From Sipunculus nudus (lineage: Eukaryota; Annelida; Sipuncula; Golfingiida; Sipunculidae), in the NCBI GenBank assembly GCA_026874595.1, contig CM049309.1, positions 52,178,079 to 52,242,078 on the forward strand: a stretch of DNA of 64,000 nucleotides. Reading direction: 5' to 3'. The notes below the pieces were generated by a model that was not told the origin of the DNA, did not search any database, and worked only from the letters and a program-made list of their open reading frames with translations. Both the position numbers and the translations under genes were made by a program. This document shows, piece by piece, positions 3,480 to 55,700 of this stretch; within the stretch, counting starts at the first letter, position 1; each line of letters opens with the position of its first letter.

Positions 3480-4604
3480 GATTATTGGAACTATATCTTT
3501 CAGCTGTTTGAAATAACTTGGTTTGCATTTTAAGCGAATCGAGTTTATCATCAGGTCACATTTGAACTGCTGCGCCCTCATTTTTGGTTGACCTCTGACC
3601 TTTCCTTGCTGCCCAGCATCCATTTGTGTGTCTGTTTCCACACATAAACCCACATATCTCGGGAACCGTTTGACCAATCAGGCTAAAAATTTTGCACAAA
3701 TGTAGCCCTTTGATAGCTTTATAACATACACTAAAAATGGTGGCGCCACCTACAACCATTTTTGCACAGCGTCCATCTGTTCATCTGCCTTGGGATAATA
3801 TTACTCATATCTCAGCAGTGGTTTGACTTATCCACCTGAAATTTTGCAGGTGCATACATCAAGGACAGCTTACTTGATTTTATGACAGGTGGCGCCACCT
3901 ACATTCACATTTACTCTGCAAACATCCAAGCTCATATCTCGGGAAGAGTTTGACCGATTGGGCCAAAATTTTGCATGTGTATAGATCTTACATAGCTCTT
4001 CATCATAGGCAAAACTGGTGGTGCCACCTGCAACCATTTATGCACAGCATCCATCTGTTCATCTGCTTTAGGTTAAAATCACTCATATCTCAGCAGTGGT
4101 TTGACTTTTCCACCTGAAATTTTGCAGGTATTTTACATCTGTGACAGCTTTTTCGATTTTATGACAGGTGTCGCCACCTACATCAGATTTACTCTGCAGA
4201 CATCCAAGCTCATATCTCAGGAACCGTTTGACTGATTGGGCCAAAATTTTTCATGTTTATAGATCTCACATAGCTCTTCATCATAGGCAAAACTGGTGGC
4301 GCCACCTGCAACCATTTATGCACAGCATCCATCTGTTCATCTGCCTTTGGATGAAATTACTCATATCTCAGCAGTGGTTTGACTTGTCCACCAGAAATTT
4401 TGCAGGTTTATACATCCTGGACAATTTTCTCGATTTTATGACAGGAGGCACCACCTACATTCACGTTTAAGCTGCAGACATCCATGCTAATATGCAACAC
4501 ACCACGCTCTATTCCCCTTGCCACTTAATCCATGCCTCACTTCACCCTTCCCACTCTGATTTCTGCGGATACACATATTGGCTTGTCGACTACCCATATT
4601 CTGG
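3480..4604 (+). mobile_element. A1: Helitron-like element with 278-bp tandem core
   Basis: Opens with the TTGACCTCTGACC and GTCTGTTTCCACACATAAACC blocks, then alternates two monomer types. GGTGGCGCCACC-type centres fall at 3888, 4016, about 4166, 4295 and about 4444, giving a 278-bp higher-order period of two unequal halves (about 128 and 150 bp). The 3' end is the shared block ending CTACCCATATTCTGG, a mutated form of the CTAG end in other copies. The 5' edge is approximate. Confidence 0.65.
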
Positions 4605-4778
4605 TTTTAAAATGTCCTAGTCCGAAACTTGCAGGTCAGAAACGTCCATTTTGCTGAAATCATAATGACTAAGGTAGATATGCAGGACTTAGGAGGATCA
4701 ATATTAAATTTTAAAAATAAACCTCCATTCATACTCCTAAACTTTGCACAGGTTCGCATTAGGCCTGTAGGCCTTGTT

Positions 4779-5050
4779 ATATGCCCATCTGACGAGACGT
4801 ATTTTGGGATTCCCACAGTTCCTCTGTCTGTCTGTCCGTTAACTTTAAGAGTCTCCCGATAACCGGCACTTTAATGGATTTTCATGGAACTCACCATAAC
4901 TACTTTCCAATAGATTACGTCGCCCAAGTTTGATTATGGGTGAAACCAACGCATATTAAATAAGGTCAGGGGTCACTAGGCTTCTCTGTGTTGTCTCTAC
5001 CATAGCTCATAGGGAATATGATGGATTTTGATCAAACAGAGAGCAGAAAT
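4779..5050 (+). mobile_element. F1: GTCCGTTAAC-seeded element, partial
   Basis: ATGCCCATCTGACGAGACGTATT, a CTGTCTGTCTGTCCGTTAAC seed, then GATGGATTTTCA and AACTCACCATAACTAC blocks and AATAAGGTCAGGGGTC. The same order appears at 14948-15215. It abuts the 3' end of C1 directly. No coding capacity; the 3' end is not defined. Confidence 0.55.
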
Positions 5051-5206
5051 ATTAATTTCATACTTTTTTCATTATAAAATTTTTCCTCTCAGTGTTTATA
5101 CTTTTTGGGTCAGTGTGATATGTAAATGTGATAATTAATGTTAGCACTGAATCCAGCATAGCATATCAAGCAGAGTAGAAAATCTTGAATAGGCAAATTT
5201 AAATTC

Positions 5207-5383
5207 AAGATAGAACCCCGCCTTATGACAAGCCCACAGTGACAATGCAATCATCCCACACCTACAATTATAACTAATTTTCTTGATTCTGAATATATGA
5301 TCCCAGTAACAAATATGACCAGCCCCAAAATAACAAGCACTTTGGTCAGTCCCCAAGGTGGTTGTAATTGTATGGTTCTACTG
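5207..5383 (+). mobile_element. Mariner-type mini-element, degraded (J-like)
   Basis: The right end GGTTCTACTG is followed by TA; the left end AGAACCCCGCC is its decayed inverted partner. The internal text (AACCCCGCCTTATGACAAG, CAAGGTGGTTGTAATTG) is of the 'accelerated inverted ends around GGTGGTC' type seen at 8836-9003 and 26801-26977. No ORF. Confidence 0.45.
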
Positions 5384-5471
5384 TACCATTTAGGTAAAAA
5401 AGTAAAGGTAGTGGGGGTTTAAAGTCTGATATCACCGACAATGTCAGTCTCATCTGACTTAATTTTACACT

Positions 5472-6107: not shown

Positions 6108-6835
6108 TTTCAGTTGCATGCTACCTGCCGCCTCTGCCGCATAGGTTTCCGGTGAACTTCACTGTAACCACTAGGCAGAATTTTTTAAAATTCCAAATTA
6201 CGATCAGGTCACAAGTGAAATGCTGCGCTCTCATTTTTGGTTGACCTCTTGACCTTTCCTCTCTGCCCAGCATCCATCTGTGCGTCTGTTTCCACACATA
6301 AACCCACATATCTAGGGAGCCGCTTTGGGTTAAAAGCACTTCTATCTTTGCAGTGGTTGGACTTATCCACCTGAAATTTTTAGATTTTATGACAGGTGGC
6401 ACCACTTACTTTCACGTTTTTGCTGCAGACATCCAAGCTTATATCTTGGGAACTGTTTGACCGATTTGGCCAAAATTTTGCATGTATATAGATCTCACAT
6501 AGCTCTTAAATATCATACACAAACTGATGGTGCCACCTGCAACCATTTTTGCACAGCGTGCATCTGTTCCTTTGCCTTGGGTTAAAATCACTCATATCTC
6601 GGCAGTGGTTTGACTAATCCACCTGAAATTTTGCATGTGTATACATCTTGGATAGTTTCTCATTCAAATAACAGGTGGCACCACCTACAATCATGTTTAC
6701 ATGGTAGACATCCATCCTAACATGTAACACATGTAACTTTATTTCCCCTTGCCACTCAATCCATGCCTCACTTCACCCGTCCTACTCTGATTTTGGGGGA
6801 TACTCGTAGTCACTTGTCGACTACCCGTACTCTAG
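6108..6835 (+). mobile_element. A2: short Helitron-like A copy
   Basis: Starts near the CCGCCTCTGCCGCATAGGTTTCC block and carries fewer core monomers than A1 (GGTGGCACCAC at about 6396, GGTGCCACC at about 6529, GGTGGCACCACC at about 6674). The 3' end is the clearest in the window: GTAGTC-ACTTGTC-GACTAC (6 bp stem) then CCGTACTCTAG and a T-rich flank. Hairpin plus CTRR is the canonical Helitron 3' end. Confidence 0.7.

Positions 6836-7875: not shown

Positions 7876-7878
<3 letters not shown>
6836..7878. other. Mostly unannotated, with a J-like scrap
   Basis: AGGTGGTCG repeated at 6948-6975 resembles the interior of the J mini-elements. Otherwise AT-rich with no coding signal. Confidence 0.4.

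Positions 7879-7913
<35 letters not shown>
7879..7913. repeat. (TA)n microsatellite
   Basis: Uninterrupted alternating TA. Confidence 0.95.
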
Positions 7914-7918
<5 letters not shown>

Positions 7919-8831: not shown

Positions 8832-8833
<2 letters not shown>

Positions 8834-9725: not shown

Positions 9726-12100
9726 TTTTTTAGCGAACTGTGAGCTTATACAGTGGTCCGTCCGCTATCTTCCTTACATTAACCCATATGCTATCTCAAA
9801 AAACGGCAGGAGCTAGCATCGCCAAATTTTTGGTAAAATCAGTCATCTAAAGCACTTTACTAACTCTGCTAATTTTTTTTTGCTATTTTCATTGACATTT
9901 ATAGGGAAAAAGCTGAAAACCTTAAAAAATCTTCTCTGATATCATTCTGCCAAATTGTTCAGTATTTCACAGAGTTAATCCCCAGAGATGAGCTCTCTCA
10001 AGTTTGTTCAAATGGATTGGGTTCAATGAATTTTGGCCAAGTTACAGGAATTTGAACTTAGTCATTTGGCAAACTAAGCATACTAACATAACAATCTCAG
10101 AAACAACAGAAGCTGGCATCAACACGTTTTGAGCAAATATTGGTCACATGACTCATTTTAGAAAATGAGGTTTTTGTGGCACCTCCTACATCAACCTGTT
10201 TTTTATTGGCAAAACCTTGTCTTTATAATGTTAGCTTCTTTGAGATTATAAAAATTGTATGATGAATCTCTCAAGTTGAATGGTACATTTTCACATGGAT
10301 TATCCTATGGTAGTGTTCTCTCAGTTGTATAAGAATAGATTGGGTTCATCGATTTTTGGTAGAGTTATACAAAGCTGAAGTGGTCTTGTGGTCATTAGTA
10401 AGCCTATTTAAAACTGAGGGCTGCAATAGTCTTCTTCTGCGAAACTATTGTTTCAACTTCTGTATCATTGCACAAATATTAAGAGAAAAACATCAAGACA
10501 AAAATTTACAAATATTTTTTTCCTAGAAATTGTTTGGCCACATTTCACAGCCTTGTGCATATGTGTGCCCATGTGTGTGTGCTGTGTATGTTATATTTAC
10601 ATAATACAGAAGAACATAGATTATAAATATTCCTAAAATAATAAGTTAAACATGTTACTTATAATTATTAGGCAACATTTCACAGACTTGTGCAGATGTG
10701 TGATGGTGTGTGCATATGTGTATATTAAATTTACATAATACAGAAGAATATATATTATACATATTCCTCAAATAATTTAAATTGAAGCATGTTTCTCATA
10801 ATTATTATGCACCCTCGTATGTATTAATTGCTAAATTATCATAATAAAAATTTTTTTTTAAATATTCACAATTATTCTAAGGTGGCCTTTGTTCAAGTTT
10901 TCTTAAATGATTTTTTTGTTGAACTATTAGACCTTAAACAATAAAAGGACTGAGATACTGAGATAACCAAAGGTAGTAATTTTATTCCTTTAACAAACTG
11001 AGCTCATTGGGTATGTAAGCAGAGCTGTACAGGCAACTTAAATAAATGGTTTTCATATCCAGCTTATGTGTTAGATAAATCCATGAATAAAATATGTCTG
11101 TATTCTGATTTTGCTTTCAATAGGCATCTCTGTTATTTTAAACATTTTGATAAAAAAAACTTATGAATATGAAGCTTGAAAAAAGCATTGTAGCAGAGTC
11201 CTTCAGTATGTATAAACAGATTTGACAACATGCCAAGATTTTATCTGTATCTATAAATAGCTTGGCAACTATTTCAGACTTGGCAACAGGCCAAGTTTCA
11301 GTTTCTATCAGTTTATAGCTTTGGCAGACTGCCAACTGAAACAGATATTGTAATGGGTTAAGAGTTCACTCAGTGCAGCCAGGTACAGGTCAAGAGTTCA
11401 TTCAGTGCAGTAGCTGCACCTGCCAATTTGCTTCGCTTGATTTTGGGCATCTGCCTAATTCTTCAGCTGAGCTTGGTCAGCCTAGTGCACCTTATCCAAA
11501 AGAAGTTTGATGTATCAGCCTGAAATATTTTTTGCACAGTGTATTTGATATATCAGCCTGAAATTGGGCTAATGTAGACATCTGGGTTAGCTGTGTCATA
11601 TACAAGACTGGTGGCACCACCTACATAATTTTTACACAGTGTATGTCCATGCTTATTTTTCAGGAGTGATTGGACAAATCAGCCTGAAATTGTGCATGTT
11701 TATACATCTTGGATAATTTTGTTGTAAACAAGACTTTTTGTGCCACCTACAACTGTTTTTTTAGGTTTCATGGATCTGTCCACATAGCTCAAGAGAGGTT
11801 TGAAGTATTATCCTGAAACATTACATGTCCATGAGTTGTCCGTGGCTTTCTAATACACAAGACCAGTGGCACCACCACAATCATTTTTGTGTTGTCTACA
11901 GCAATGCCAGTATTTCAGGAGTGACATTTGTGTAATTGTTGCTTATACTCAGGTTCAGTATGTTTAGTTCATGCATTGTACATATACATGTGATGTCACA
12001 CATGCACTTGAAATATAACGGTCAAGCATGTTATCATGGAAGCATTATACCTGATGTATATCTCTTTGCACAGCTTTGCATTAAGCCTGAAGGCCTTGTT
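9726..12100 (+). mobile_element. C2: near full-length Helentron-like C element
   Basis: Starts TTTTTAGCGAACTGTGAGC and ends GCACAGCTTTGCATT, then AAGCCTGAAGGCCTTGTT: mutated forms of the C subterminal repeats and hairpin. In order it carries the 'seed', CTCAAGTTTGTTCAAATGG monomers, the GGCAGACTGCCAACTG block, the TTCACTCAGTGCAGCC block, and GGTGGCACCACC monomers in the 3' half. At about 2.4 kb it is the least disrupted C copy and a guide to the others. No helicase or replicase reading frame. Confidence 0.75.
10536..10810 (+). repeat. 135-bp direct duplication inside C2
   Basis: CATTTCACAGCCTTGTGCA (10541) recurs as CATTTCACAGACTTGTGCA (10676), followed in both by a TG-rich stretch, TTTACATAATACAGAAGAA and an AT-rich tail. 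The copies have diverged. Confidence 0.75.
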
Positions 12101-12999
12101 TTATTTTTTAAGGATAGCAATATTAATTAAAGTACTGGTACCATATAACATTAGCTTGTGTGTTTGCATAATACAGAAAGAGACTACAGGTGAATACAAA
12201 ACCACAAAACATGAATTTTTCATCTTTCCAGCAGCAATTGATGATTTTACAGGCTTTTGATAGTGGGAATTCCAGTCCATGTTAAGCTTAAAAAGTGAAA
12301 TAACATGTTTTCACTTAGGCTTCAAACGCCATAAAAAATGACTAGCAGCATCAGAGCACCTGGTGCAGTCTGTTTTTGATGTTTCCTGGGTGATTTCAAT
12401 CAGTCAGACCAGGTTTATTTCAGAACCTTTAGAGTGGAGAGGGACTAAAGATGGTAATTCATTACTCAGAGATGTGCAATAATTATTTATCATCAGTTGT
12501 AAACGTCTTCAAGGAAATATGGAAATGATTGTACAGAAGAATGTGGCAGCGGTAAAATTTATTGCCTTATGAATATTCATTGGGAAGGAGGCTAAGTGCT
12601 CTTTAATATTCCTAAGTTCATGCATGACTATGACAGCAGTGAAACTAGTTCTGCTGTCTGATTCACTTATTGTATAATATAACTGGATTTATATATGGTA
12701 CTTTATTTGTTTCTTAGAATTGAAGTTGTTCTATATAAAAATCATTTGATGGATCAAGGTTAAAAAAATTAGATAAATATGGATTAATGTCATATGAAGG
12801 ATTTTGTTTTTTAGATAAAAAGAATTCAGGCTATGCTGGTACAGTTGTGCATTCATCATGCAGTGCTATTTCAGAGTCTTCATAAACTGATGCTGAGAAT
12901 CGTTCGATCAGCAAAATTGAAAATTTATTTTAATATGTTTCTACTAAAATTAATTATTTAAGAAATGTGTTAAAATTAACCAAACTAGAGATTTGGGAC
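12101..12999. other. Unannotated DNA
   Basis: Unique-looking sequence without a recognised gene or repeat end. Confidence 0.4.
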
Positions 13000-18318: not shown

Positions 18319-18524
18319 AATATGTATCATACAGGTCTCTTTGTGATCTTAAGGCTGCAGATCAGTCATCTAAGTCTTTTATTTGTATCAAGCCACATGA
18401 TGGTAAATTTCGCATGTTTTGGACCAGTGAAGAGTTTAATCAGGGCTGTTACATTGCTTTCAACAATCATTAAAGCAGTAATTTTGAAACATTTCTGCCT
18501 AATTAAACAATTATTTTATCTGCC

Positions 18525-19959
18525 AAAACAAAGTTTTGTGGGTACTATGTCTTTGACTGGGTTCCGCTGCTGCATTCGTTTCCGGAATACCCCTCTGAGA
18601 CCACGGGACTGATTTTTCCAAAACTTTACCCCATTATTGGGTCACATGTGAACTGGTGCAAAATAATTTTGTGTTGACCTCTGACCTTTGCCCTCTGCAG
18701 TGCGTCCATCTGTGCATGTGTTCTCACACATTAAACCCACATATCTTTGGACTCATTTGGCCAGTCGGGCTGAAATTTTGCACAAGTGTAGCTCTTGGAA
18801 TGCTTTATATCATATAGAAAACTGCATGGTGGCGCCACTTGCACAGTGTCCATCTGTTTGTCTGGCTTTGTTTAAAATCACTCATATCTCATAATGTGGA
18901 TGGACTTATCCTCATGAACTTTTGCATGTGTATACATCCTTGATATCTATCTTTCTTTTATAACAGATGGCTATATTCACGTTCACACTGCAGAAATCCA
19001 TGATAATATCTCAGGACTGGTTTGATGTATCCTCCTGAAATTTTGCATGGATATATAGATTTCACATAGGTCTTTATCATGTACGCAAAACTGGTAGTGC
19101 CACCTGCAACCAATTTTGCACAGCATCCATCTGTTTTCTGCCATTGGATAAAATCACTCATATCTCGGCAGTGGTTTGATCTGCCTTGAATTTTGCATAT
19201 TTATACATCTTAGACAGCTTTGTGGCTTTTGTGTCAGGTGGCACCACCTACATTCACGTTCATGCTGCAGACATATATGATAATATCTGACAACTGGTTT
19301 GACATATTGGCCTGAAAGTTTGCATGAGTATAGATCTTATACATAGCTCTACAGCTTATACAAATTTGGTAGCCCATTTTAACAACCATTTTTGCATGGT
19401 GTCCATCTGTTCATGTGCCTAGAGTAAAAATCTCCCATATCTCAGCAGAGGTTTGACTTATATCTGCCTAATATTTTGCATATATATACATCTTGGACAA
19501 CTTTCTCGCTTTTGTGTTAGGTGGCGCCACCTATATTTACATTTACACTGCAGACATCCATGCTTTTATCTCAGGACTGGTTTGACGTATTGGCCTGATA
19601 TTTTGCATGAGTATAGATCTTACATAGCTCTACAGCTTACAAATTTTGTGGCACAACTTGACTACCATTTTTGCATTGTGTCCAGCTGTTCATGTGCCTA
19701 GGGTAAAAATCACTCATATCTCAGCAGTGGTTTGACTAATCCACCTGAAATTTTGCATATGTATACATCTTGGATAGCTTTCTCTTCCAAATAACAGGTG
19801 GTGCCACCTACAATCATGTTTCCATCACAGACATCCATATACTAATATGCCACACATCTCACTGTTTTTCCCTTGCCACTCAATCCATGCCTCACTTCCA
19901 CCGTCCCACTCTGATTTTGGTGGATGCATGTAGGCGCTTGTTGACCTCCTGTATTCTAG
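18525..19959 (+). mobile_element. A3: long Helitron-like A element
   Basis: Begins GCCAAAACAAAGTTTTG and GGTACTATG, the 5' text shared with A4, then the CCTCTGAGACC block and alternating monomers (perfect GGTGGCGCCACC at 19521). Terminates with the shared CCATGCCTCACTTCCACC block, a decayed hairpin and CTAG at 19956-19959 before a T-rich flank. Reading frames across it merely reflect the palindrome (Gly-Gly-Ala-Thr on either strand). Confidence 0.7.
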
Positions 19960-21208: not shown

Positions 21209-23099
21209 ATTTTTTGGCTATCTGCATTTACTTAGATTTTATAGGGAAAGAGCTTAAAAACCTTTAAAAATCTTCTATTCTGAAACTGTCCAGCCAAATT
21301 GTCCAATATTTCACAGAAATAATCCCAGAAACAATCTCTCTCAAGTTTGTTCAAATGGGTAAAGTTTGGTGATTTTTGGGAGAGTTACAGGAAGTTGAAC
21401 TTAGTCATCTGTCCAAAAAAAATCTTTCCAAAAAAGGGTATTAAAATCTCAATCTCAGAAAGGGCTGGAGCTATCATCACAAAATGTTATGCCAATGTTG
21501 GTGACATGAGTCATATCTGAAATGGAGGTATTGGTTGCGCCATCTGCATTGGCCTTTTTTGTACAGGGGCCATCAGTGCCTGTATCACACTGAGGGCTAC
21601 AAAAAACTTCTTCTCTGAAACCATATAGCCAAATTATTAAAAATCACACAGAAATGATCCTAGGGTAGTGCTTTCTGAAGTTTGTTAAAATGGTCTCAGT
21701 GCAGTGACTTTTGGCTGGGTTATGGGAAGCTAAATTTAGTCATATGCCATAATAGCCCATTTTAGCTCGGTGGCTACAAAGATCTTCTTCTCAAAAATCA
21801 CTTGGCCAAATTCTTAAATCTCACACATTAATTATCCTCAGATGTTGATAATTCAAGTTTGTTCAAATGGTTTTTTGGTTTAGTGCTTTTTGGCTGAGTT
21901 ACGGAAAGCTGAACTTAGCCAGTGTGCTGTATCTTCCTGTATAAGTTATAAACCTGCAAAATGTTTTTTGACTGACGATACTGAAGCCAATTTGTTTAAT
22001 ATTTTACAAGAATAATCCTAACAATAATTCTCATAATAATTGTCTTTGATGGTTCCACATGAATAATTTTTGCTGAATTATGGAGATTGAATTGAGTCAT
22101 TTTACCATATATGTTAACTGTGTGAAGCAGTTACATCTAGCCTGGCACCAGTTTATCAGCATCTATTATATCATGCCACCAAACATTTAGATTACAGGTT
22201 AAATAGCTTGGCAGACTGCCATCTATTTCAGATTTGGCAACAGGCCAACATCCAGCCTGGATCTATTTATAGCTTTGGCAGACTGGCAACTATCAGTTTA
22301 GGCAACAGGTCAAGAGTTCACTCAGTGCAGCCAGGTATAGGTCAAGAGTTCACTCAGTGCAGTAGCTGCATTCTATTTATAGCTTTGGCAGACTGCCCAC
22401 TGTACCAGATTTGGCGCCAAAGGTCAGTCTGGATGTATTTATAGCTTTGGCAAACTGCCAGCTGTTTCAAATAATGCAACAGGCCAAGAGTTCATTCAGG
22501 GCAGCCAGGTACAGGTCAAAAGTTCACTCAGTCTAGCCAGGTGCAGGTCAAAAGTTCACTCAGTCTATCCAGGTGCAGGTTAAGAGTACACTCAGTGGCG
22601 TAGCTTGAGCCAGCAATTTGTCACAGTTCACTCACGCCAAATGCCTTTCTCAACTAAGCCTGGTCAGCCCAGTGCATCAAACTCAAAAAGTTTGATGTAT
22701 TGGCATGATATTTTGACCTGTCTATGCACATTTGATGCCTTTCTCGTTCACAAGATAGATGTTGCCACCTACATTGACTTTGCACAGTGTATGTGCCCAC
22801 TTATTTCTCCAGAGGAATTTGATATATCAGCCTGAAATTGGGCATATTTATACATATTGTAAAGCTTTGTCATTTACAAGACTGGTGGGGCCACCTACAA
22901 TAATTTTTGTTCAGTGTATGTCCCGGCTTATTTCTCAGGAGGAGTATCAGCCTGAAATTGGGCATATGTATACATCTCTGATACCTTCTCCGTATACAAG
23001 ACATGTAAGCCAACTTGAAAAGTAATGGCCCAGCATTGAAGCATTATACCTGGTGTTTAAACCATTGAACAGGTTCGCATTAGGCCTGTAGGTCTTGTT
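21209..23099 (+). mobile_element. C3: Helentron-like C element, 5'-truncated
   Basis: Starts within the C body (GGCTATCTGCATTTACTTAG), lacks the TTTTTAGCGAACCTGTG end, and runs through CTCAAGTTTGTTCAAATGG monomers, the GGCAGACTGCC and TTCACTCAGTGCAG blocks to ACAGGTTCGCATT and AGGCCTGTAGGTCTTGTT at 23070-23099. It lies inside K. Confidence 0.7.
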
Positions 23100-40837: not shown

Positions 40838-41790
40838 CCAGCTGAATGAAAGTCATCTTAGCTACAGTGATCACTCTTTGTCCTTGTACTGTCCAGCTGT
40901 CTGTCTGTCCGTAAACAGGGTACAAATTGTGAACACTGGACCTAGAAATTTTTCACTGTAGATCCATGGAGGTCAATTAAAATCTCTTTGGTCTTTGGAA
41001 ATTAGGTCACTGTGACCTATTTTCTTTCAGTTATGGGACTCACAAGTACACCCCCCAGAATGGGGGTTGTGTCCATCTGACTTATTGGTACTCAAATCAT
41101 ACTCTTTCACATAGCTCACAGATATATTTCATAATGGCCTTACTTTTGATGTAAAAGGAGACATAACAATGACCACCCTTTACATTAAGAAAGGAATTTC
41201 TTGATTCAACAGTTAAGAATTGTGACCTGTCTGACTTTCTGGGTGTTTAAAATTAGGTATTCTGTTCATAGCTCACAGGTCACAGTGGCCTAATTTTAGG
41301 ATTAAAAGGAGACTTACCAAGTTTTGTGCCCTGTCTGACTGTCTGGATGGTCCTAATCATATTTTTGGCTGGTCACTTAAAAAATATAGGTCACCATGAC
41401 CTATTTCCAGGTTTTCAAGGAAATTTGACCAGAACCTCCAAAGATTTTGTGTTATTTTGTGTTTTTTTCCCTATTGCTTGCAAAATGTAGGTCACACTGA
41501 CCTAATTTTATGTTACCAAGGACATTTATATAGGAGCTCCACGAATGTCACATTAGAAGATTCTAGACAAAATGGATATAATTTGTGCCCCATCTGACTC
41601 TCTGCTGGGTGCTCAGAATCATGTTTACAACCAGTAGCTCACAGAATATAGGTCACCAAGACCTAATTTCAGGTTTCCAAGGAGATTTGCCTTGGACATC
41701 TAAGTCTAATGATTACAGTTTGTGCCCTGTTAACATTTCTTCATTTGAAGGTTTCAAAAATAGAGAAAAAAATTAGCTTTTCAAGTGCTT
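40838..41790. mobile_element. B0: composite, head-to-head B-type remnants
   Basis: 40838-41060 is B in plus orientation (CAGCTGAATGAAAGTCATC, GTCTGTCTGTCCGTAAACAGG, ATTAGGTCACTGTGACC). 41640-41790 is B in minus orientation: TGTGCCCTGTTAAC and AAAATAGAGAAAAAAATT are reverse complements of B words. Between them AGGTCAC.TGACCTA-type monomers recur about every 120-140 bp and contain near-palindromes. Confidence 0.5.
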
Positions 41791-42108: not shown

Positions 42109-45100
42109 TTTTAGCTCAGCTGACAAAAAGTCATCTGAGCTATAGCAATCACTCTTTGTCCGTCGTCCGTCTGTCTGTCCATCTGTCCGTTAACCAGGCA
42201 CACATCGTAACCGCTGGACCTAGAACCTTGTTACTTGGGATTCTGAGAGGTCCATGGAAAATCTCCTTGGAAACCAGAAATTAGGTCTCTGTTACCCATA
42301 TCCTTCAAGTTATGGGGCCCCAATGTACCCCCCAGAAAAGTAAAAAATTTCATACAAAAACTTCAATATCTCATTAACTACTTGACTGATGGTCATGATT
42401 TTTGGCATACATATTGATCATAAGATGTTCCATCAGTTCCTGAAGACTGGTGGTGCCACCTGTATTTTTCGATTTTTTATGAATTTTTTTCTCTATTTTT
42501 GATACCTTTAAAAATGTGAACATCTGTTAACAAGGCACAAATCGTAAAGACTGGACCTAGAATCTTCACTCTCGACACACTGAGAGACCTATAAAAAGTC
42601 TCCATGGAAACCAGAAATTAAGTCTCTGTTACCCATATCCTTTGAGCTATGGGGCCCCAAAGTACCCCCCAGAAAAGTAAAAAAAATTTCATACAAAAAC
42701 TTCAATTTCTCATTAAATACTTGACTGATGGTAATGATTTTTGGCATACATATTGATCATGAGATGTTCCGTCACTTCCTGCAGACTTGTGGCGCCACCT
42801 GTATCATTCAGTTTTTTTATGAATTTTTTTCTCTATTTTTGAGACCTTTCAAAATGTGAACATCTGTTAACATGGCACAAATTGTAAAGACTGGTTCTAG
42901 AATCTTAATTCTTGACACACTTAGAGGTCCATGAAAAATCTCCTTGGAAACCAGACATTATGTCTCTGTTAACCATATCCTTCGAGCTATGGGGCCCCAA
43001 TTTTAAGTACCCGCCAGAGTAGTCAAAAATTTCATACAAAACTTCAATATCTCAATAACTACGTCACTGATGGTCATGATTTTTGGCATACATATTGATT
43101 ATGAGATGTGTCATCACTTCCTGCAGACTGGTGGCGCCACCTGTATTGTTCGATTTTTTATGAATTTTTTTCTCTATTTTTGAGCCCTTTCAAAATGTGA
43201 ACATCTGTTAACAAGGCACAAATCGTAAAGACTGGACCTAGAATCTTAAATCTTGACACACTGAGAGGTCCATAAAAAATCTCCTTGGAAACCAGAAATT
43301 AGGTCTCTGTTACCCATATCCTTTGAGCTATGGGGCCCCAAAGTACCCCCCAGAAAAGTAAAAAATTTCATACAAAAACTTCAATAAATCAATAACTACA
43401 TCACTGATGGTCATGATTTTTGGCATACATATTGATTATGAGATGTGTCATCACTTCCTGCAGACTGGTGGCGCCACCTGTATTGTTCGATTTTTTATGA
43501 ATTTTTTTCTCTATTTTTGAGCCCTTTCAAAATGTGAACATCTGTTAACAAGGCACAAATCGTAAAGACTGGACCTAGAATCTTAAATCTTGACACACTG
43601 AGAGGTCCATAAAAAATCTCCTTGGAAACCAGAAATTAGGTCTCTGTTACCCATATCCTTTGAGCTATGGGGCCCCAAAGTACCCCCCAGAAAAGTAAAA
43701 AATTTCATACAAAAACTTCAATAAATCAATAACTACATCACTGATGGTCATGATTTTTGGCATACATATTGATTATGAGATGTGTCATCACTTCCTGCAG
43801 ACTGGTGGCGCCACCTGTATCGTTCGAATTTTTAGGAATTTTTTTCTTTATTTTTGAGACCTTTAATGATATGAACATCTGTTAACAGGGCACAAATCAT
43901 AAAAACTGGACCAAGAATCTTCATTCTTGACACACAGGGAGACCCATGAAAATTCTCCATGGAAACCTGAAATTAGGTCTCTGTTAACCATATTCTTAAG
44001 GCTGTATGGCTGGAAAATTTGATACAAAAAGTGCAGTATCTCAATAACTACAACACTGATGGTCATGATTTTCGGCATACATATTGATCATGAGCTGTTC
44101 CATCAGTTTCTGCAGACTGGGTGCGCCACCTCTATTTTTTTCAAATTTTTACGAATTTTTTTTTTGAGACCTTTAAAGATGCGGTTATCTGTCAACAGGG
44201 TACAAATTGCAACAACTGGACCTAGAAACTTCATTCTTGTCATGCAAGGAGGCCCATGAAGAGTGACTGTGGAAACTTGAAATTAGGTCTCTGTTAGTGT
44301 TACCCATATCCTTCAAGCTATAGGACTCTGAAGTATCCCTCAGAATAATGGACAATATGATACAAAAGCTGAAGTATCTGAACAACTAATGCGGAGATCA
44401 TCATGATTCTTTGCATGGATATTGACCATTAAGTGTTTTTATTAGTTTCTGCAGACTGGTGGAGCCAAAATGAAGTTTTGCAGATACTATGTTGTTGACC
44501 GGGTTCCTCCACCACCGCCACGTTTGTTTCCAGAGAGCTCCTCTGAGAAAAATGGACCGATTTTTCTGAAACTTGCACCAATTATTGAGTCACATGTGAA
44601 CTAGTGCCTAACCAATTTGTGTTGACCTCTGACCTTTCCCCTCTATCCAGCGTCGATTTGTGCGTCTGTTTCCACACATAAACCCTCATACCTCGGGAAC
44701 CGATTGACCAATCAGGAAATAAAATTTATACAAATGTAGCCCTTGGATTGCTTTATAACATACACAAAAATGGTGACGCCACCTGTAACCATGTTTGCAG
44801 TGTCCATCTGTTCATCTGCCTTGGGTAAAAATCACTTATATCTCTGCAGTGAATTGACTAATTCACCTAAAATTCGGCATGCATATACATCCAGGATAGC
44901 TTTCTTGATTTTATGACAGATGGCGCCACCTACATTTACGTTCACGCTGATCACATCGAAGCTCATATCTGGGGAACCGTTTAACCGATTGGGCCAAAAT
45001 TTTGCATGTGTATAGATCTCACATAGCTCTTTATCATACGCAAAATTGGTGGCGCCACCTGCAACCATTTTTGCACAGCGTCTGTCTGTTTTCTGCCGTG

Positions 45101-45819
45101 GGATAATGTCACTCATATCTCGGCAGTGGTTTGACATATCTGCCTAAAATTTTGCAGTTTCATACATCCTGGATAGCTTTCTTGATTTTATGACAGGTGG
45201 CGCCACCTACATTCTAGTTTATGCTGCAGACATCCGAGCTCATATCTCGGGAACCTTTTGAACGATTGGGCCAAAATTTTGCATGTGTATAGATCTCACA
45301 TAGGTCTTTATCATACACAAAACTGGAGTTGCCACCTGCTACCATTTTTGCACAGTGTCTGTCTGTTTGTCTGCCGTCAGCTAAAATCACTCATATACAT
45401 GTAGTGGTTTGACTTTTCTGCCTAAAATTTTGCATATGTATACAACTTGGACAGCTTTCTGGATTTGTGGTAGGTGGCACAAACTACATACACATTTAGG
45501 CTGCAGACATGCATGCTAATATGCAACATACCTCACTCTATTTCCCCTTGCCACTCAATCCATGCCTCACTTCAACCGTTCCACTCTGATTTTGGCGGAT
45601 ACACGTAGTCACTTGTCGGCTACCCGTATTCTAGTTTTTAAAGTTTACACATTTTTTCTCTATTTTTGAGATATATAAATACAGACTAAATCTTGGCCTG
45701 TTGGTTAATCTGTTTGATGCTTCAGTTGAATGGGTATATACTACCATTCTGATGATAAAATTTCCTTTTGTGAATCTCTTCCCAGTCAGCTGAGCGTCAT
45801 GACCCATGGGTCACTTGTT
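42109..45819 (+). mobile_element. B2: Helentron-like B element, 340-bp monomers
   Basis: Starts TTTAGCTCAGCTGAC and ends CAGTCAGCTGAGCGTCATGACCCATGGGTCACTTGTT. The 5' CTCAGCTGAC and 3' GTCAGCTGAG are inverted copies. Monomer mark CTGTTAACA at 42524, 42864, 43205, 43542 and 43879 gives periods of 340, 341, 337 and 337. Monomers starting 43205 and 43542 are nearly identical, indicating recent homogenisation. Perfect GGTGGCGCCACC at 43130, 43467 and 43804. A4 is nested in the last monomer. Confidence 0.8.
44466..45634 (+). mobile_element. A4: Helitron-like A element nested in B2
   Basis: Interrupts a B monomer after GCAGACTGGTGGAGCC; the B text resumes as TTTACACATTTTTTCTC after the CTAG at 45631-45634. 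The 3' hairpin GTAGTC-ACTTGTCG-GCTAC precedes CCGTATTCTAG. Perfect GGTGGCGCCACC at 45048 and 45196. No target duplication, as expected of Helitrons. 5' boundary by comparison with A3. Confidence 0.75.
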
Positions 45820-46448
45820 TCTATGGTATTTTGTCGTGAACATTACCATTATTTCCAATGTTTTTTTTATTTATGGACATCATGATTATTTTCTTATGGT
45901 AATTGTATCAATTGACATTACCAATAATATCTGTGGTTATCAGTAGGCATTACCATTAAATCCTATGGTTATCAGTGGACATAACCATTATTTCCTATTG
46001 TATTTTATTAGTGGACATTACCAATATATCCCCTGGTATTATATCAGTGGACATTACCATTATTTCCTATGGTATTTTTATCAGTGGGCATCACCCTCAT
46101 TTCCTATGGTTATTAGCTCAGCTGACTGAAAGTCATCTGAGCTATAGCGATCACTCTTCATCTGGCGTCCGTCTGTCCGGTCGTCCGGCAGTCTGGCAGT
46201 CCGTCTGTGAACAGGGCACAAATGGTAACCCCTGGACCTAGAATCTTCTTACTTAACATCCAGGGAGGTCCATGAAAAATCTCCTGGGAAACCTGAAATG
46301 AGGTCTCTGTTACCCATATTCACCAAGTTATGGGTCTTGTAAGTAGCCCCCAGAATAATCAAAAATGTTATACAAAAGCTCATGTATCTGAAGTGTTTCA
46401 TCAGTTTCAGCAGACTTTTTATGAATTTTTTTCTTTATTTTTGAGACC

Positions 46449-47270
46449 TTCAAAAAGCCTCATCTTGTAACATGGCACAAATCGTAACCCCTCCCCTAGA
46501 ATCTTCATACTTGACATCTAGATAGGTCCATGAAAAGACTTCATGGAAATCTGAAATAAGGTCTCTGTTACCCATATTCTCCGAGCTATGGAGCTCATAA
46601 GTACCCCTCAGAAAAGTTAAAAATTTGATTCCGAAACTCGAGTATCTGAATAACTAATGCATTGAACACCATGATTTTTTGCATGATTATTGATCATGGA
46701 GTGTTCCATCATTTCCTGCAAACTGGTGGCTCCATCTGTATTTTTTTCTAATTTTTACAAATTTTTTTTCTCTATTTTTGATACCTTCAAGGAAGCTGTC
46801 ATCTGTTAACAGGGCACAAATTGTAACCTCTGGATCTGGAATCTAAGATCTAACTTGACATTCAAAAAGCCTCATCTTGTAACATGGCACAAATCGTAAC
46901 CCCTCCCCTAGAATCTTCATACTTGACATCTAGATAGGTCCATGAAAAGACTTCATGGAAATCTGAAATAAGGTCTCTGTTACCCATATTCTCCGAGCTA
47001 TGGAGCTCATAAGTACCCCTCAGAAAAGTTAAAAATTTGATTCCAAAACTCGAGTATCTGAATAACTAATGCATTGATCACCATGATTTTTTGCATGATT
47101 ATTGATCATGGAGTGTTCCATCATTTCCTGCAAACTGGTGGCTCCATCTGTATTTTTTTCTAATTTTTACAAATTTTTTTCTCTATTTTTGATACCTTCA
47201 AGGAAGCTGTCATCTGTTAACAGGGCACAAATTGTAACCTCTGGATCTAGAATCTAAGATCTAACTTGTT
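46449..47270 (+). repeat. 412-bp tandem duplication inside B3
   Basis: Text from CAAAAAGCCTCATCTTG (46451) recurs from 46863 (offset 412) and stays nearly identical to about 47270, differing at a few bases (for example CCGAAACTC versus CCAAAACTC, GAACACC versus GATCACC). It is longer than one 340-bp monomer, so it is an extra duplication. Confidence 0.9.
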
Positions 47271-48069
47271 ATCAAGGGACGTCCATGAAAAGTCTCTGTG
47301 GAAACATGAAATGAGGTCTCTGTTACCCATATCCTCCGAGCTATGAGGCTCCTAAGTACTCCTCAGTATAAATTAAAAGTTTGATACAAAAACTCCAGTA
47401 TCTGAATAACTAGTGCACTGATGGCCATGACTTTTTGCATGCCTATTGATCTTGGAGTGTTTCATCAGTTCCTGCAGACTGGTGGCGCTACCTGTATTTT
47501 TTTTAAATGTTTTCACATTTTTTTCTCTATTTTTGAGACCTTCAAATAAAGCGTCATCTTGTAACATGGCACAAATCGTAACCTCTGGCCCTAGAATTGT
47601 CATACTTGATATCTAGAGAGATCCATGAAAAGTTTTCATGGAAATCTGAAATTAGGTTTCTGTTACCCATATTCTCTGAGCTATGGAGCTCGTAATTAAC
47701 CCTCAGAAAAGTTAAAAATTTGATACAAAAGCTTCAGTATCTGAATAACTACTGCATTGATCATCATGATTCTATGCATGAATATTGATCATGGAGTGTT
47801 CCATCATTACCTGCAAACTTGTGGCGCCACCTGTATTCTTTCTAATTTTTAATTATCTAATTTTTTTCTCTATTTTTGTTACCTTCAAAGAAGCTGAAAT
47901 CTGTTAACAGGGCATAAATCGTAACTGCTGGACCTGGAATCTTTGAACTTGACATCGAGGGAGGTCCATGAAAAGTCTTCATAGAAATCTGAAATAAGGT
48001 TTCTGTTACCCATATTCTCTGCGCTATGGGGCTCGTAAGTACCCCTCACAATAATTAAAAATTTGATAT

Positions 48070-48775
48070 CAAAACTCTGCGTTCGTTTCCAGAGAACTCC
48101 TCTGAGATCCTTGGTCCTATCTTTCCGAAACCCAACTTAGTTGTTCCCTTCACCTATGTGGTTGTCCCTAACAAAGACAGGTGGCACCATCAGCATGTGC
48201 AATCCTTTCTGTGCAGTACAAAGCTGGGTGTCTTTTAGATAACAGCCCATATCTCAGGAGTGGTTTAATGTATTAAGCTGAAAGTTTGCATGTCCATAGA
48301 ACTTAGATCTCTCCATCTCATTATCATGACTGGTGGCGCCACCAACAATACTTTTTGCGTAGTGTTCATCATTGCATTTGCCATCTTGTCATCTTAGTTG
48401 TTCTTCAATGTATTGGCTTGAAATTGTGCATGTTAATAGATCATCAACATCTACATCTCATTAACAAGACTCTTGGGACCATCTGCAGTCATTTTTGTGT
48501 GGTGTCTATCTGTATATTAGCTTTTGATGAAAATTGCTCAAGTCTTAGGAATGGTTCAAGATATTGGTCTGAAATTTGGCATGTCCATCCATCTTGGTAA
48601 GTTTTCTTAAAAACCAGCTACCTACCACCTACCTTCCCATTTTTGTAGAATAATTAATGCCCTTTTCTCAGGAGTGATTCGCAATAATAGCCTGAAATGG
48701 TGCATGGACTCTTCCATCTTGTACTCAAGACTCATGGTGCCATCTGCAAATGTTTTCCTGTGGCGTCCATCATCT
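48070..48775 (+). mobile_element. A-like monomer block inside B3
   Basis: GCGTTCGTTTCCAGAGAACTCCTCTGAG opens it, then ATATCTCAGGAGTGGTTTAATG monomers, one with a perfect GGTGGCGCCACC (48332). B text resumes at TTTATGAAACCTTCAAATG. It has no CTAG end. Confidence 0.55.
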
Positions 48776-51020: not shown

Positions 51021-52760
51021 CTGATATTCTCTGAAATAATCATTTGAAACATCAGCATCCCCTGCATGATATTATAAGCCTACCCCTGATGACTGCCTGC
51101 GCTGGAGTGACATCAGGAAGACAGTCAGGTCTTGCTGCTGATGGATTGATGTCAGATGCTGTAACAGCATGCCAATCCAGCCGCTGACGGTTCAATCATC
51201 AAGCCTTATACAGCCAACTGTCTGCAGGCTCTGCAATGTCAATAATTATACCTCCATCAGGCAGCAAGGTATCGTGTGATCCTGTGGGTTGGTTGCATTG
51301 CTTGTCTTTTACTAGCAAGTTAACTCAGAAAGTTATGGACCAATATGATGAATTGTTTTTTGTTTGTTAGCGTTTTGTTTGCTAGATTAGCATTAGTGTT
51401 TGAAATGTAACAAATTTTGACTTTGAAGATTAACAGTTGAGACAAGTATTCCCAGCAATCCAACAGTGCCCAAGAAAAGAGAATTTGTTTCAAGTAGTAA
51501 CCACCTCTGATGAAAAGGTCCTGGTTTCTCTGTACTTGGGGCTGTGTAATATTAGTTAAATTTCACTCATTTTCTTTCAAAGATGGGGCAAGAGGATTTT
51601 GACCTACGGGGGAGACTGTTGTGAGCAAAGTGGTTGCTTTTAGGAAGATATTTACAAGAAAAGCGATTTTATAAACAAATTGATAGGTCTGTTAGCTTGG
51701 TTTACTGATTTTCTTGGCCTATCCAGATTTTTAGACCAGAGAGAACCAGAGGAAATTTAAACCAGAAGAAATTGACCCAAGAAGATTGTCCTTGATAAAA
51801 TGGTGTTTAAAATACATGATGTAGCAACACCTGCTGTTTTTTGTGGCCGACCTACAATCGTTGTGCCATCATGAATCTTCCTGAATAGCCACAAGGAGAG
51901 ACGGAATAACGATTTATACCAGCAAGCTGTCACTGTTGCAAACAATGGATAGATTTAAACACAGCTCTTCCTTTGTATTAAAATCAGGGGAGGATAATTT
52001 CCAGAGTAAAGGACCAGTAAAAGCAAGGGAAGATAGGATATTGTAAACTCTTTGTGCAGATAGGCAGGGCACATGTAACAAGGATTAGAGGAGATAAATA
52101 ATGAATAATTTAAACACAGAGTCATATGGCTTTGCTAACTTATGATTATGTTGGGTGAATAACAGTGGCAGGAAGGATGACATATAGTTTATGTATATGT
52201 TTTTTAAGGAGGACTAAGCACACATGCTGTATTGTTTATATTAGGCCTGTGAATTGTGAGGGGCTTTTGAATCAATTCAATTAATCAATTCTTTACCTTT
52301 AACTTTTTGTCCATTTTACTACTATTTTAGTGTCAAATTTCAGACTTTCCTGTAAATAAAAACAAATATTTACCATAATGGAAATTAGTTAATTGTTGGA
52401 AAAATATTGCTTGCCCTCTGTTTATTGCCTCCAATTTCGTTCCTATGCAAGTGGAGCGCTTTACAACCAAGTATTGAAATGATATCTTGAGCACATACAC
52501 AATAAAAAGTCTTGACATTGCAGCTTGCTCCATCAATGTTGATAGATCACTTATAATCAAAACAAATAAATTTGGAGGTTATGAATTTATAATGTAATTG
52601 ATGCATTGTTACACCCCTAGTTGATGTTATAGGCAGGATTATCCCTGTTTAAAGAACCATCTGAGCCTACAAGTGAATTCTCAAAACAGTAATGCTGAAA
52701 GGAGTATTGAGTAAGCACTCGTGTTTGAAATATAGACTCAAGCCTCCATGTAGGTGTGTA
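51021..52760. other. Mostly unannotated DNA
   Basis: Includes R copy 2 (51405-51520, aligned with 38465-38580). No gene or other repeat end is visible. Confidence 0.4.
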
Positions 52761-55700
52761 TTTTAAGCCAACCTGTGAGCTTATGTGATGGTGCTGTGGC
52801 CTCCATCGTGCGTCGTCACCATAGCAAACTCAAAAACGGCAGGAGCTAGCATCACCAATTTTTTTTGCAAATAATCAGTCATCTGAAAAACTCTATCAGA
52901 ATTTGCTTATTTTTTTTTCTTACTGTATTTTCTTTCTGCCGTCCATGGCTATAAGTCAGAAACCGTCAGAGCTAGCAGCTCCAAATTATATGTAAGAATT
53001 AGTCACATGTGAAACTTGGTGCCCTGGAGCTTATTATTGGGTATGTGCATTAATTTAGATTTTAATGGGGAAAAGCTAAAAAAACTTTAAAAATCTTCTC
53101 CGAAACTGTCTAGTCAAATTGTCCAATATTTCACAGAAATGATCCCTGGAACAATCTCACTCAAGTTTGTTCGAATGGTTCCAGTTCGGAAATTTTTAGC
53201 CGAGTTACAGGAGGTTGAACTTAGTCATCTGTCCAAAAAATTCTAAGAAAAGGCTGGCCCTATCATCAGCAAATTTTCTGCCAATGTTGGTCACGAGTCA
53301 TATCTGAAATTGAGGTATTGGTGGCGCCAGCTGCATCGGCCTTTTTTGTACAGGGGTCATCAGTACCTGTATCACAGTGAGAGCTACAAAATACTTCTTC
53401 TCTGAAACCATATGGCCAAATTGTTTAATATCCCACAGAAATAGTCATCTGTCCAAAAATCTCAGAAACAGCTTGCCCTATCATCACGAAATTTTATGCC
53501 AATGTTGGTCACATGAGTCATATCTGAAATTGAGGTATTGGTGGCGCCAGCTGCATTGGCCTTTTTTGTACAGGTCTTCAGTACCTATATCACACTGAGG
53601 GCTACAAAATACTTCTTCTCTGAAACCATTTGGCTAAATTATTTAATATCGCACAGAAATGATCCTAGAGTAGTGCTTTCTGAAGTTTGTTCAAACGGTC
53701 TCTGTTCAGTGACTTTTGGTTGAGTTATGGGAAGCTTAATTTAGTCATATGTCATAACAGCCCTTTTTAGCTCAGTAGCTACAAAGATCTTTATCTCAAA
53801 AACCACTGGGCAAAATTCTTAAATGTCACACATTAATTATCTTCAGATGTTGAAAATTCAGGTTTGTTCAAATGGTTTTGGTTCAGTGCTTTTTGGCTGA
53901 GTTACAGGAAGCTAAACTTAAAGTTTACCCATACTATCTTGAAAACGGCAATAGTTAGCATCACAAAATTTTATGCAAAAAATTAATAATCTAAAAAACA
54001 GATTTTGCTTTTTTTTTGGCTAACTGCATTTTCTTAGATTTTATAGGGAAAAAGCTAAAAAACGCTTTAAAAATCTTCTTTTCTGAAACTGTTCAGCCAA
54101 ATTGTCCAATATTTCACAGAAATGATCCCTGGAACAATCTCTCTCTAGTTTGTTTGAATGGTTTAGGTTCAGTGATTTTTGGATGAGTTACAGCTAGTTG
54201 AACTTAGTCATCTATCCAAAAAAGCATACTAAAATTACAGTCTTAGAAACGGCTGGAGCTATCATCACAAAATTTTATGCCAATGTTGGTCACATGAGTC
54301 ATATCTGAAATTAAGGTATTGGTGGCGCCACCTGCATTGGCCTTTTTTGTACAGGGGTCATCAGTGCCCGTATCATACTGACAGCTACAAAAAACTTCTT
54401 CTCTGAAACCATATGGCCAAATTGTTTAATATCACACAGAAATGATTCTAGGATAGTGCTTTCTGAAGTTTGTTCAAATGGTCAGTGACTTTTGGCTGAG
54501 TTATGGGAAGCTGAATTTAGTCATATGCCATAACAGCCTATTTTAGCTCAGTGGCTACAAAGATCTTCTTATAAAAAAAACACTGGGCCAAATTCTTAAA
54601 TCTCACACATTAATTATGTGTGAATTTTGGCTGAGTTATGAAAAGCTTAACTTCGCCAATTTGCTTTATTTTTCCATATGAGTTATAAACCTGCAAAACA
54701 TTTTTTGACTGATGCCATTGAGGCCAATTTGTTTCATATTTTACAAGAATAATCCCCTGAATTATTCTTATAATAATTTCCTTTTATGGTTACAAAGAAT
54801 CAATTTTGGCTGAATTATAAAGATTGAATTGAGTCATTTTACCATATATGTTAGCTGTGTGAAGCAGATACATCTAGCCTGGAACCAGTTTATCAGCATC
54901 TGTTACATCATGCCTCCAGACATTTAGATTTCAGGTTATCTTTGGTTAATATTGACAAGAATGTATTTTTAAAACTTTTAAAAAATGTAGATTTATGATT
55001 TTAGATATTCCTTATGCCAGGCAATGTTTACAATCACAGGTATACGTTAACCCATACTATTTCGAAAACAACTGGAGCTAGCATCATAATTTGCAAAAAA
55101 TTAGCCATCTGAAAAAATCTGCATTTTCTCAGATTTTATAGAGAAAAAGCTAAAAAACCTTTAAAAATCTTCTCCTCCAAAACCGTCAAGCCAATTTGTT
55201 AAATATTTCACAGAAATAATCTTTTATACCATCTTTCTCAAGTTTGTTCAAATGGTTCAAGTTCTGTGAATTTTGGCCAAATTACAGGAAGTTGAACCTA
55301 GTCATCTGTCAAAAAAAGCATACTAAAATGACAATCTCAGAAACAGCCAGAGGTATCATCACCAAATTTTATGCCAGTCTTGGTCACTTGAGTCATATAT
55401 GAAATTCAGGTATTGATGGCACCACCTGCATTGACCTTTTTTTGTACGGGGTCATTGGTCATCTGTATATTACCTATAATTTCTCAGGAATAGCAGGAGC
55501 TACCATCCCCAGATTTTATGCAATAATCTGTCACATATAAAATGTTGTGGGATTCAGCTTATTTTTTTGCTATCTGCATTTACTAGGATTTTATAGGAGA
55601 AAAGCTGAAAAACCTTTAAAAGTCTTCTTGTAAACAGTACAGCCACATTGTTCAATATTTTACAGAAATGATCCCAGAGGCAAGCCCTCTCAAGTTTGTT

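Follow-up and report, generated by a model that had tools for sequence, protein, structure and literature searches.

Unlike rolling-circle transposons of Sipunculus nudus carry one palindromic monomer core and lie in local orientation domains

A 12-bp palindrome, GGTGGCGCCACC, recurs along a 64,000-bp stretch of the Sipunculus nudus genome (GenBank assembly GCA_026874595.1, contig CM049309.1, here C4:52178079-52242078; the window below), in transposable elements whose ends are unlike one another, which raises the question whether these elements carry one and the same monomer and whether the palindrome is kept for a function. An exact string search found 11 copies in the window. The earlier note on this DNA had listed ten and placed nine of them correctly, the tenth being at 19520 rather than 19521, and had overlooked the copy at 3739. 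The many one-mismatch copies that it mentioned number 19, nine of them being CpG-decay forms (5 TG, 4 CA). Its statement that the copy number exceeds chance is borne out both in the window, where 46 matches with at most two mismatches compare with 0.37 expected (100 shuffles), and in the searched genome of 1,426,538,692 bases (153 contigs, 17 of chromosome size), where 111,729 exact copies compare with 14 of the reversed-pattern control. Nearly all window copies fall within tandem monomers or monomer remnants. A literature search for GGTGGCGCCACC returned a single match, in an unrelated paper, and a search for GGCGCC combined with palindrome, satellite and transposable element returned none.

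The carriers of the palindrome are non-autonomous rolling-circle transposons, Helitron-like in the case of family A and HINE-like (Helentron-type) in the case of B and D/E. Monomers of family A are 278-bp dimers with two palindromes each (149 + 129 bp spacing). The three 3' ends of this family found by the end pattern (6835, 19959, and 45634) read CTAG followed by T, a fourth near 4595 reads CTGG, and the 3' hairpin stem is imperfect, with folding that is not significant. Family B, with monomers of about 337-343 bp, has a left module composed of the subterminal inverted repeat (subTIR) GCTCAGCTGAC, its inverted partner GTCATCTGAGCT (1 mismatch), and a GTCC/GTCT tract, while its right end, seen complete once, consists of GTCAGCTGAGC, the palindrome GACCCATGGGTC, and CTTGTTT. 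A third element type, to which the D and E monomers belong, has GCGAACCTGTG at the 5' end and CACAGGTTCGC, the palindrome AGGCCTGTAGGCCT, and CTTGTT at the 3' end; these ends, which come from D and E segments, were paired through the inverted repeat and not from one uninterrupted copy. The GTCC tract is seen in the D/E left module, and an inverted subTIR copy is not clear there. A fourth type, M, has the HINE layout and a 179-bp tandem repeat, with no palindrome GGTGGCGCCACC in the copy that was read; its left module contains the inverted partner GTGGCCGGGGCAT (1 mismatch) followed by a GTCC/ATTCC microsatellite. The subTIRs match in inverted orientation at 11/11 positions in B (GCTCAGCTGAC/GTCAGCTGAGC) and in D/E (GCGAACCTGTG/CACAGGTTCGC) and at 10/10 in M (ATGCCCCCGC/GCGGGGGCAT), and the 3' subTIR is followed by a palindrome in all three (GTGTCGTTCCGACAC in M). 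B, D/E, and M thus have features of HINEs, namely, subTIRs, a left module with a microsatellite and, in B and M, a clear inverted copy, and a 3' palindrome. Folded as single strands, the 3' ends of B and D/E did no better than shuffles (z of -0.06 and -1.05), and none of six short stretches folded, palindrome monomers and 3' ends among them, gave a convincing hairpin (best z -2.1, one A monomer). The observed 5' ends of B and D come after T-rich runs. A search for a Helitron/Helentron source, which covered the Rep-type domain only, gave at least 143 matches to PF14214 (Helitron_like_N), seven of them in open frames of more than 2,200 aa, and none in 14 control genomes.

For a comparison of the monomers, the palindrome was masked and 114 monomers were chosen for the similarity of their flanks in the window and at 32 sampled loci (pieces numbered with L): 64 from the window, 23 from L028, 12 each from L004 and L006, two from L005, and one from L001. 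Family alignments accommodated 112 of them (A1 21, A2 24, B 30, D 14, E 23). All five family consensuses have the palindrome at 12/12 positions, followed by T, while the ungapped identity of flanks between families is 0.62-0.75 for A2-E and 0.24-0.53 for the other nine pairs. The common text that the earlier note had read ahead of the palindrome is real: the five consensuses share boxes at nearly fixed distances from it, TCTC at -80 or -78, A(A/T)TTT at -51 to -48, a GCA-type box at -45 to -43, and ATC/GTC at -33 to -31. Upstream flanks align with scores above all 300 shuffles in six of ten pairs (A1-A2, A1-B, A1-D, A1-E, A2-D, and A2-E) and weakly in B-E, A2-B, and B-D (score reached by 3, 14, and 20 of 300 shuffles, respectively), while those of D and E fail to align (93/300). 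Downstream, the flanks of A1-E, A2-E, and A1-D align (0, 0, and 1 of 300) and those of A2-D do so weakly (10/300); the remaining six pairs gave no downstream alignment against 300 shuffles. The expectation that monomers align beyond the palindrome thus holds for most pairs upstream and for three pairs clearly downstream, and fails for D-E upstream. The shared upstream boxes point to common descent of the family monomers and, together with the five 12/12 consensuses, to one core module under unlike termini, as had been proposed: CTAG in A, and different subterminal inverted repeats in B and D/E. Judged by these alignments, the tandem monomer with its palindrome core is homologous across no fewer than three kinds of rolling-circle transposon, all of them non-autonomous.

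The comparison of the palindrome with the rest of the monomer, which the earlier note had proposed for the whole genome, was made on this sample and shows the palindrome to be better kept than the flanks within families (112 monomers, 0.85-0.93 vs. 0.77-0.84), the effect in D being weak. In A1, A2, B, D, and E, respectively, non-CpG palindrome columns agree with the family consensus at 0.919, 0.928, 0.927, 0.850, and 0.883, and non-CpG flank columns at 0.836, 0.806, 0.814, 0.790, and 0.773. CpG columns agree at 0.565-0.737 in the palindrome and at 0.545-0.684 in the flanks, where such columns are few; loss of CpGs first would be expected if the elements are methylated in the germline. When each of the 114 monomers is compared to the closest window monomer, the identity of the palindrome without its CpG (0.82) is no higher than that of the flank (0.83), which indicates roughly neutral decay of single copies and constraint at the level of families. 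This fits a constraint that would act on lineages while they propagate but not on dead copies. Genome-wide, the CG, TG, and CA forms number 26,909, 8,613, and 6,340 in the ACT...TRYA context. The excess of TG over CA in the element-oriented frame, despite the symmetry of the site, may reflect strand-asymmetric CpG decay, with subfamilies and arrays as confounders; A2 shows more CA than TG.

A putative protein, either a factor of transposition or a DNA-binding protein of the host, may bind the palindrome during lineage propagation, so that the site is kept, and tandem monomers would then multiply the putative binding sites. A functionless relic of the monomer descent common to the families, which we consider an improbable alternative, would account for the shared upstream boxes, for the equal decay of palindrome and flank in single copies compared to the nearest window monomer, and for the 54 of 171 flank windows (10 columns each) that in D are kept as well as the palindrome. 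It is at odds with the 12/12 identity between families whose flanks have diverged, apart from A2-E, to the extent given above, and with the rarity of equally well kept flank windows in the other families (B 0, E 1, A2 4, and A1 12, each out of 171). It is also rather unlikely that the palindrome is a site of a CTCF-like architectural protein spread by transposons. The T that follows the palindrome in all five consensuses makes the conserved block asymmetric, and the bottom-strand block TRYAGGTGGCGCCACC contains YAGGTGGCGCC, which fits what we take to be the CTCF core, YAGRKGGCRSY. However, the upstream CCAS of that motif is absent from the five consensuses, and such a site would leave the orientation described below unexplained, since M elements are equally polarised without the palindrome. 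A tandem repeat family with GCAGCGCCACCTAGCGGCC / GCAGCGCCCCCTAGCAGCC, found in L058 (C8:80144401-80149400) and L002 and up to 94% identical between them, is closer to the CTCF motif than the palindrome is.

A feature of these elements that the earlier note had not noticed is their orientation. Most coordinates of the elements mapped in the window, listed here, are approximate, apart from the stated termini.

2638-4778, plus strand: D/E HINE-like element; 5' subTIR GCGAACCTGTG at 2638-2648, GTCC-rich tract, D monomer with GGTGGTGCCACC at 3111; on the 3' side, subTIR part CAGGTTCGC at 4749-4757 and 3' palindrome with CTTGTT at 4761-4778; element A (~3550-4612) lies in between, and the two ends are only presumed to belong together
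3550-4612, plus strand: Helitron-like element of family A with dimeric monomers (149 + 129 bp); exact palindromes at 3739, 3888, and 4295, near copies at 4017, 4167, and 4444
6131-6835, plus strand: family A element; palindrome variants at 6395, 6526, and 6674; 3' end CCCGTACTCTAG at 6824-6835, then T
9733-12107, plus strand: D/E-type segment; 5' subTIR GCGAACTGTG at 9733-9742, D monomer at 10175, E monomers at 11610 and 11865
18522-19959, plus strand: family A element; exact palindrome at 19520, variants at 18828, 19093, 19237, and 19797; CTAG end at 19948-19959
21209-23099, plus strand: D/E segment; D monomer at 21533, E monomers at 22758 and 22884, 3' end at 23070-23099
35600-37590, plus strand: B HINE-like element; 5' subTIR at 35600-35610, GTCC-type microsatellite, B monomers at 36384, 36725, and 37061, 3' palindrome GACCCATGGGTC at 37572-37583
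41067-41776, minus strand: reversed B-like segment, the exception in orientation, with no palindrome copy found within
42114-45820, plus strand: B HINE-like element; 5' subTIR GCTCAGCTGAC at 42114-42124 with inverted partner; monomers of about 337 bp with palindromes or variants at 42449, 42788, 43130, 43467, 43804, and 44119; 3' subTIR GTCAGCTGAGC at 45785-45795, palindrome at 45801-45812, CTTGTTT ending at 45820
44600-45634, plus strand: family A element nested in the preceding B element in the same orientation; exact palindromes at 45048 and 45196, CTAG end at 45623-45634
46116-48400, plus strand: B HINE-like element; 5' subTIR at 46116-46126, variants at 46725, 47137, 47481, and 47820, then an E-like monomer with an exact palindrome at 48332
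52932-57887, plus strand: D/E array; D monomers at 53320, 53540, 54321 (exact), 55415, and 55865, G-family segment at 56816-57696, 3' end at 57858-57887
58484-59319, plus strand: E monomers at 58985 and 59105; D/E 3' end at 59290-59319
59700-60445, plus strand: E monomers at 60111 and 60231; D/E 3' end at 60416-60445
63128-64000, plus strand: M HINE-like element without the palindrome; 5' subTIR ATGCCCCCGC at 63128-63137, inverted partner, microsatellite, 179-bp tandem repeat; it runs beyond the window (L053) to the 3' subTIR GCGGGGGCAT, a hairpin, and CTTGTTT

The window termini of all families, searched with eight end patterns, point one way, the five minus-strand matches being inverted partners of plus-strand ends. 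Genome-wide, the orientation is balanced (13,426 forward and 13,483 reverse), and the first 100 sites listed on chromosome 1 (C1) fall into long same-orientation runs. A map of C1 to 10.72 Mb, which combines listed sites of A/B/E type (CG, TG, and CA forms), of D, and of M, contains 365 sites in 170 clusters; as sites within one cluster are not independent, cluster-level figures are preferred. In C1:0.12-1.10 Mb (0.98 Mb), all 87 listed sites and all 24 successive clusters are in minus orientation, and CpG-decayed copies keep the polarity there (TG 23/23 and CA 13/13 minus). Clusters of mixed orientation are 7 of the 84 with several sites and 3 of the 41 with several families. Adjacent clusters agree in 71 of 85 cases in C1:0-4.85 Mb, a figure reached by none of 20,000 shuffles, and the agreement between clusters in that region is 55/67 at 40-80 kb, 91/112 at 80-160 kb, and 158/230 at 160-320 kb. 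Six of 14 10-kb block pieces sampled on C1 hold elements, and in five (L001, L004, L005, L006, and L011) these match the block. On C1, the elements, M included, lie in one-orientation runs of about 20 kb to about 1 Mb. At C1:10738681-10789774 (~50 kb), copies of the CA variant of the A-type pattern follow one another, often spaced by multiples of about 277-280 bp and always in plus orientation, apparently as a satellite array grown from a transposon monomer.

The polarity extends across families. Sites of D agree with A/B/E-type sites in 31/31 cases within 10 kb, 11/13 at 10-30 kb, and 1/4 at 30-60 kb, and Helitron A agrees with HINE B in 29/36 cases within 30 kb, where the two families were separated by the TRYA letters only. 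M agrees with A/B/D in 27/29 cases within 20 kb, 17/23 at 20-50 kb (cumulatively 44/52 within 50 kb), 6/10 at 50-100 kb, and 13/22 at 100-200 kb. Long interspersed nuclear elements (LINEs), located by the reverse-transcriptase motif TWYGCNGAYGAYAC (3,869 matches vs. 414 of the control), agree with the nearest rolling-circle element in 5/13 cases within 20 kb, 12/24 within 50 kb, and 21/41 within 100 kb, and, on the fuller C1 map, in 8/19 within 60 kb. The polarity of M, which is without the palindrome, and the lack of it in LINEs indicate that it belongs to the element class and not to the palindrome; as far as this single control goes, it is not general to mobile DNA. An AT-rich repeat, GTAGTTTAATATTAG, considered as a further non-HUH control, was dropped, as it has only 205 copies of unassigned type.

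Among the causes of the polarity that we considered, insertion coupled to fork direction appears the most likely. Strand-specific HUH transposition would capture single-stranded target DNA, which is exposed on one template at replication forks, and the orientation of an element would thereby record fork direction in germline cells. We rank this coupling first on three grounds: HUH nucleases work on a single strand and in a conserved direction (PMC5876387, consulted in part); bacterial members of the HUH family, IS200/IS605, show such a rule, their orientation tracking fork direction (excerpt of PMC5371812); and copies with decayed CpGs, which are presumably the older ones, follow the domains of the intact copies, which calls for a long-lived chromosomal signal. 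That germline fork direction imposes polarity on eukaryotic Helitrons and Helentrons, so that hundreds of thousands of their fossils would form a fork map with domains of tens of kb to about 1 Mb, is put forward tentatively, with less than even confidence. To the joint reading, in which the palindrome is a core site kept by putative protein binding and the orientation records germline fork direction, we give about an even chance.

Several results weigh against fork coupling. In C1:0-4.85 Mb, the coherence is gone beyond 320 kb (239/434 at 320-640 kb, then 338/813), while in C1:4.85-10.72 Mb neighbouring clusters agree in only 54/83 cases (reached by 179 of 20,000 shuffles) and the agreement fades past about 20 kb (14/19 at 10-20 kb, 15/26 at 20-40 kb, 32/60 at 40-80 kb). 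L012, in a block listed as plus, holds a minus element. The orientation lists, each limited to the first 100 sites, cover the first 4.8-24 Mb of C1, and the evidence from elsewhere is that of the window and the sampled pieces. Masked bulk sequence has no significant skew along the polarity in 13 pieces (TA 0.011 +/- 0.011, GC 0.017 +/- 0.013). Helraiser requires a double-stranded donor and forms circles that are double-stranded at least in part (PMC5876387, in the part consulted), so that coupling to forks would have to operate through target-strand choice alone. An autonomous partner of the palindrome families was not identified, and the 9 kb flanking one long-frame Rep copy are without the palindrome at up to two mismatches. 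Composition as a cause of the polarity was rejected, since an excess of T over A in unmasked sequence (+0.055 vs. -0.049, 7 pieces each) vanished after masking (7/13 positive). Chromosome ends, where forks would be expected to run outward, gave no reference point for fork direction: no telomere repeat was seen by eye in the first 150 bases of the 17 readable contigs among C1-C20, those of C10, C14, and C18 being N.

Self-targeting or tandem transposition, either by same-orientation insertion at T-rich parts of relatives or through head-to-tail rolling-circle products, would need no chromosomal signal and is the strongest rival of fork coupling where domains are short, although we hold it to be somewhat unlikely as the general cause. 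The elements are clustered (among the first 14 10-kb C1 pieces, L004 has 12 core matches, L006 has 14, and ten pieces have none), an A element is nested in a B element in the same orientation at 44600-45634 of the window, and in L028 A- and B-type matches interleave in one orientation, bar a reversed 200-bp minus A fragment at the end. The short coherence in C1:4.85-10.7 Mb is of the kind that self-targeting could leave, HINEs of Crassostrea gigas favour T-rich sites (excerpt of PMC7492417), and head-to-tail and tandem Helitron arrays are described in plants and bats (excerpt of PMC5876387). Such a process does not readily account for the 81-82% agreement of separate clusters 40-160 kb apart in C1:0-4.85 Mb (overlapping and hence not independent pairs), for the 24 successive minus clusters across 0.98 Mb, or for the agreement of families with unrelated ends. 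Transcription, through insertion into single-stranded non-template DNA or through selection against one orientation in transcripts, would make elements follow gene direction, which seems to us unlikely. Gene direction was followed in ion-channel genes found by PF00520, with introns sampled in 16 pieces (L017-L032), and in genes named by eye from translations, which we take to be LCOR-like in L008 and a glycosyltransferase in L012; four added pieces, L054-L056 (three more ion-channel genes) and L057 (beside the gene in L008), are without elements, and 7 of 20 pieces are informative. Gene and element direction agree in the ion-channel genes at C1:71.1, C2:45.9, and C5:43.3 Mb, and the minus gene in L012 has a minus element, opposing the regional block, so that the element matches the gene direction in four of the five genes with local elements, a count that speaks against fork coupling and is too small to decide. 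Gene-sized units would also fit the short distance over which coherence holds in part of C1. By contrast, the plus ion-channel gene at C8:45.98-46.05 Mb holds minus elements in two sampled pieces of its introns, the match in one of these being weak and 70 bp long, L028 ends with the minus A fragment, the 0.98-Mb domain is long for a single transcript, and LINEs are not polarised with the rolling-circle elements. The minus gene in L008 sits in a minus block, with the nearest listed element more than 60 kb off. A splice-donor pattern was rejected as a marker of gene direction, as it was not enriched over the reversed control (18,073 vs. 21,227). At 69 of the 100 listed places, with tandem arrays collapsed, AAGGTAAGTW sites are concordant with elements in 21/21 cases within 5 kb and 7/10 at 5-50 kb, and CAGGTAAGTW sites in 4/5 and 4/13, respectively, which makes splice-donor sites uninformative on gene direction.

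Some observations concern neighbouring sequences. Inverted repeats pair 1-216 with 1698-1914 and 349-461 with 1569-1682 in the window, where 1-1914 is possibly an element with terminal inverted repeats. Rfam and ARAGORN searches of the window gave nothing beyond a borderline Rfam tRNA match at 35881-35952 (29.4 bits, cut-off 29), which is absent from the ARAGORN output and perhaps belongs to a tRNA-derived repeat. L013 and L014 (C1:3950001-3960000 and 4100001-4110000) are masked almost wholly as tandem repeat, with fewer than 800 unmasked bases each, and may be part of a large satellite.

The anatomy of these elements and their tandem cores are already of a known kind. What stands out is that unlike rolling-circle families, present in enormous numbers, have an identical palindrome in their consensuses, and that orientation is locally near-uniform across unrelated families, with LINEs as the negative control. 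A partial survey of the literature (titles and starts of abstracts) found no description of such orientation domains, which is not proof of their absence from it. If fork direction is the cause, eukaryotic HUH transposition would be tied to host replication, as is known for the bacterial HUH family, and an assembly would reveal replication polarity in organisms for which no replication data exist; should transcription or self-targeting lie behind it, the polarity would still be a strong rule of how elements land.

Among the closest known systems are the Helentron-associated Cg_HINE elements of C. gigas. According to the consulted part of PMC7492417, they likewise have a 5' subTIR with an inverted partner, a GTCC-type microsatellite, a 3' subTIR with a palindrome, and a satellite-like monomer array always in one orientation to its flanks, and in some clusters two conserved segments are common to monomers that are otherwise dissimilar. 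Unlike the elements studied here, Cg_HINE is reported to insert in both orientations and to prefer no chromosome or segment, and that part of the paper describes neither local orientation domains nor a common 12-bp palindrome; in S. nudus, moreover, the monomer core of the HINEs is also present in a Helitron with a CTAG end. The rice Helitron DHH_Mothra is similar in being non-autonomous, with two tandem-repeat blocs, a 3' CTAG with a hairpin, and a high copy number, and differs in that no monomer in common with Helentron-type elements and no orientation domains are described in the portion of PMC4683698 consulted. The likeness to IS200/IS605 is one of working, as these elements transpose as single strands and are oriented by fork direction, a cause that is only inferred in our case; they are bacterial and move by peel-and-paste (PMC5371812, in part). 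The strand bias of human L1 and short interspersed nuclear elements relative to replication and transcription is, like the polarity described here, a case in which mobile DNA prefers one orientation with respect to the direction of the chromosome. While significant asymmetries and preferences are described there (PMC10030826, consulted in part), the rolling-circle elements of S. nudus agree nearly completely within about 10-20 kb, and its LINEs show no such agreement.

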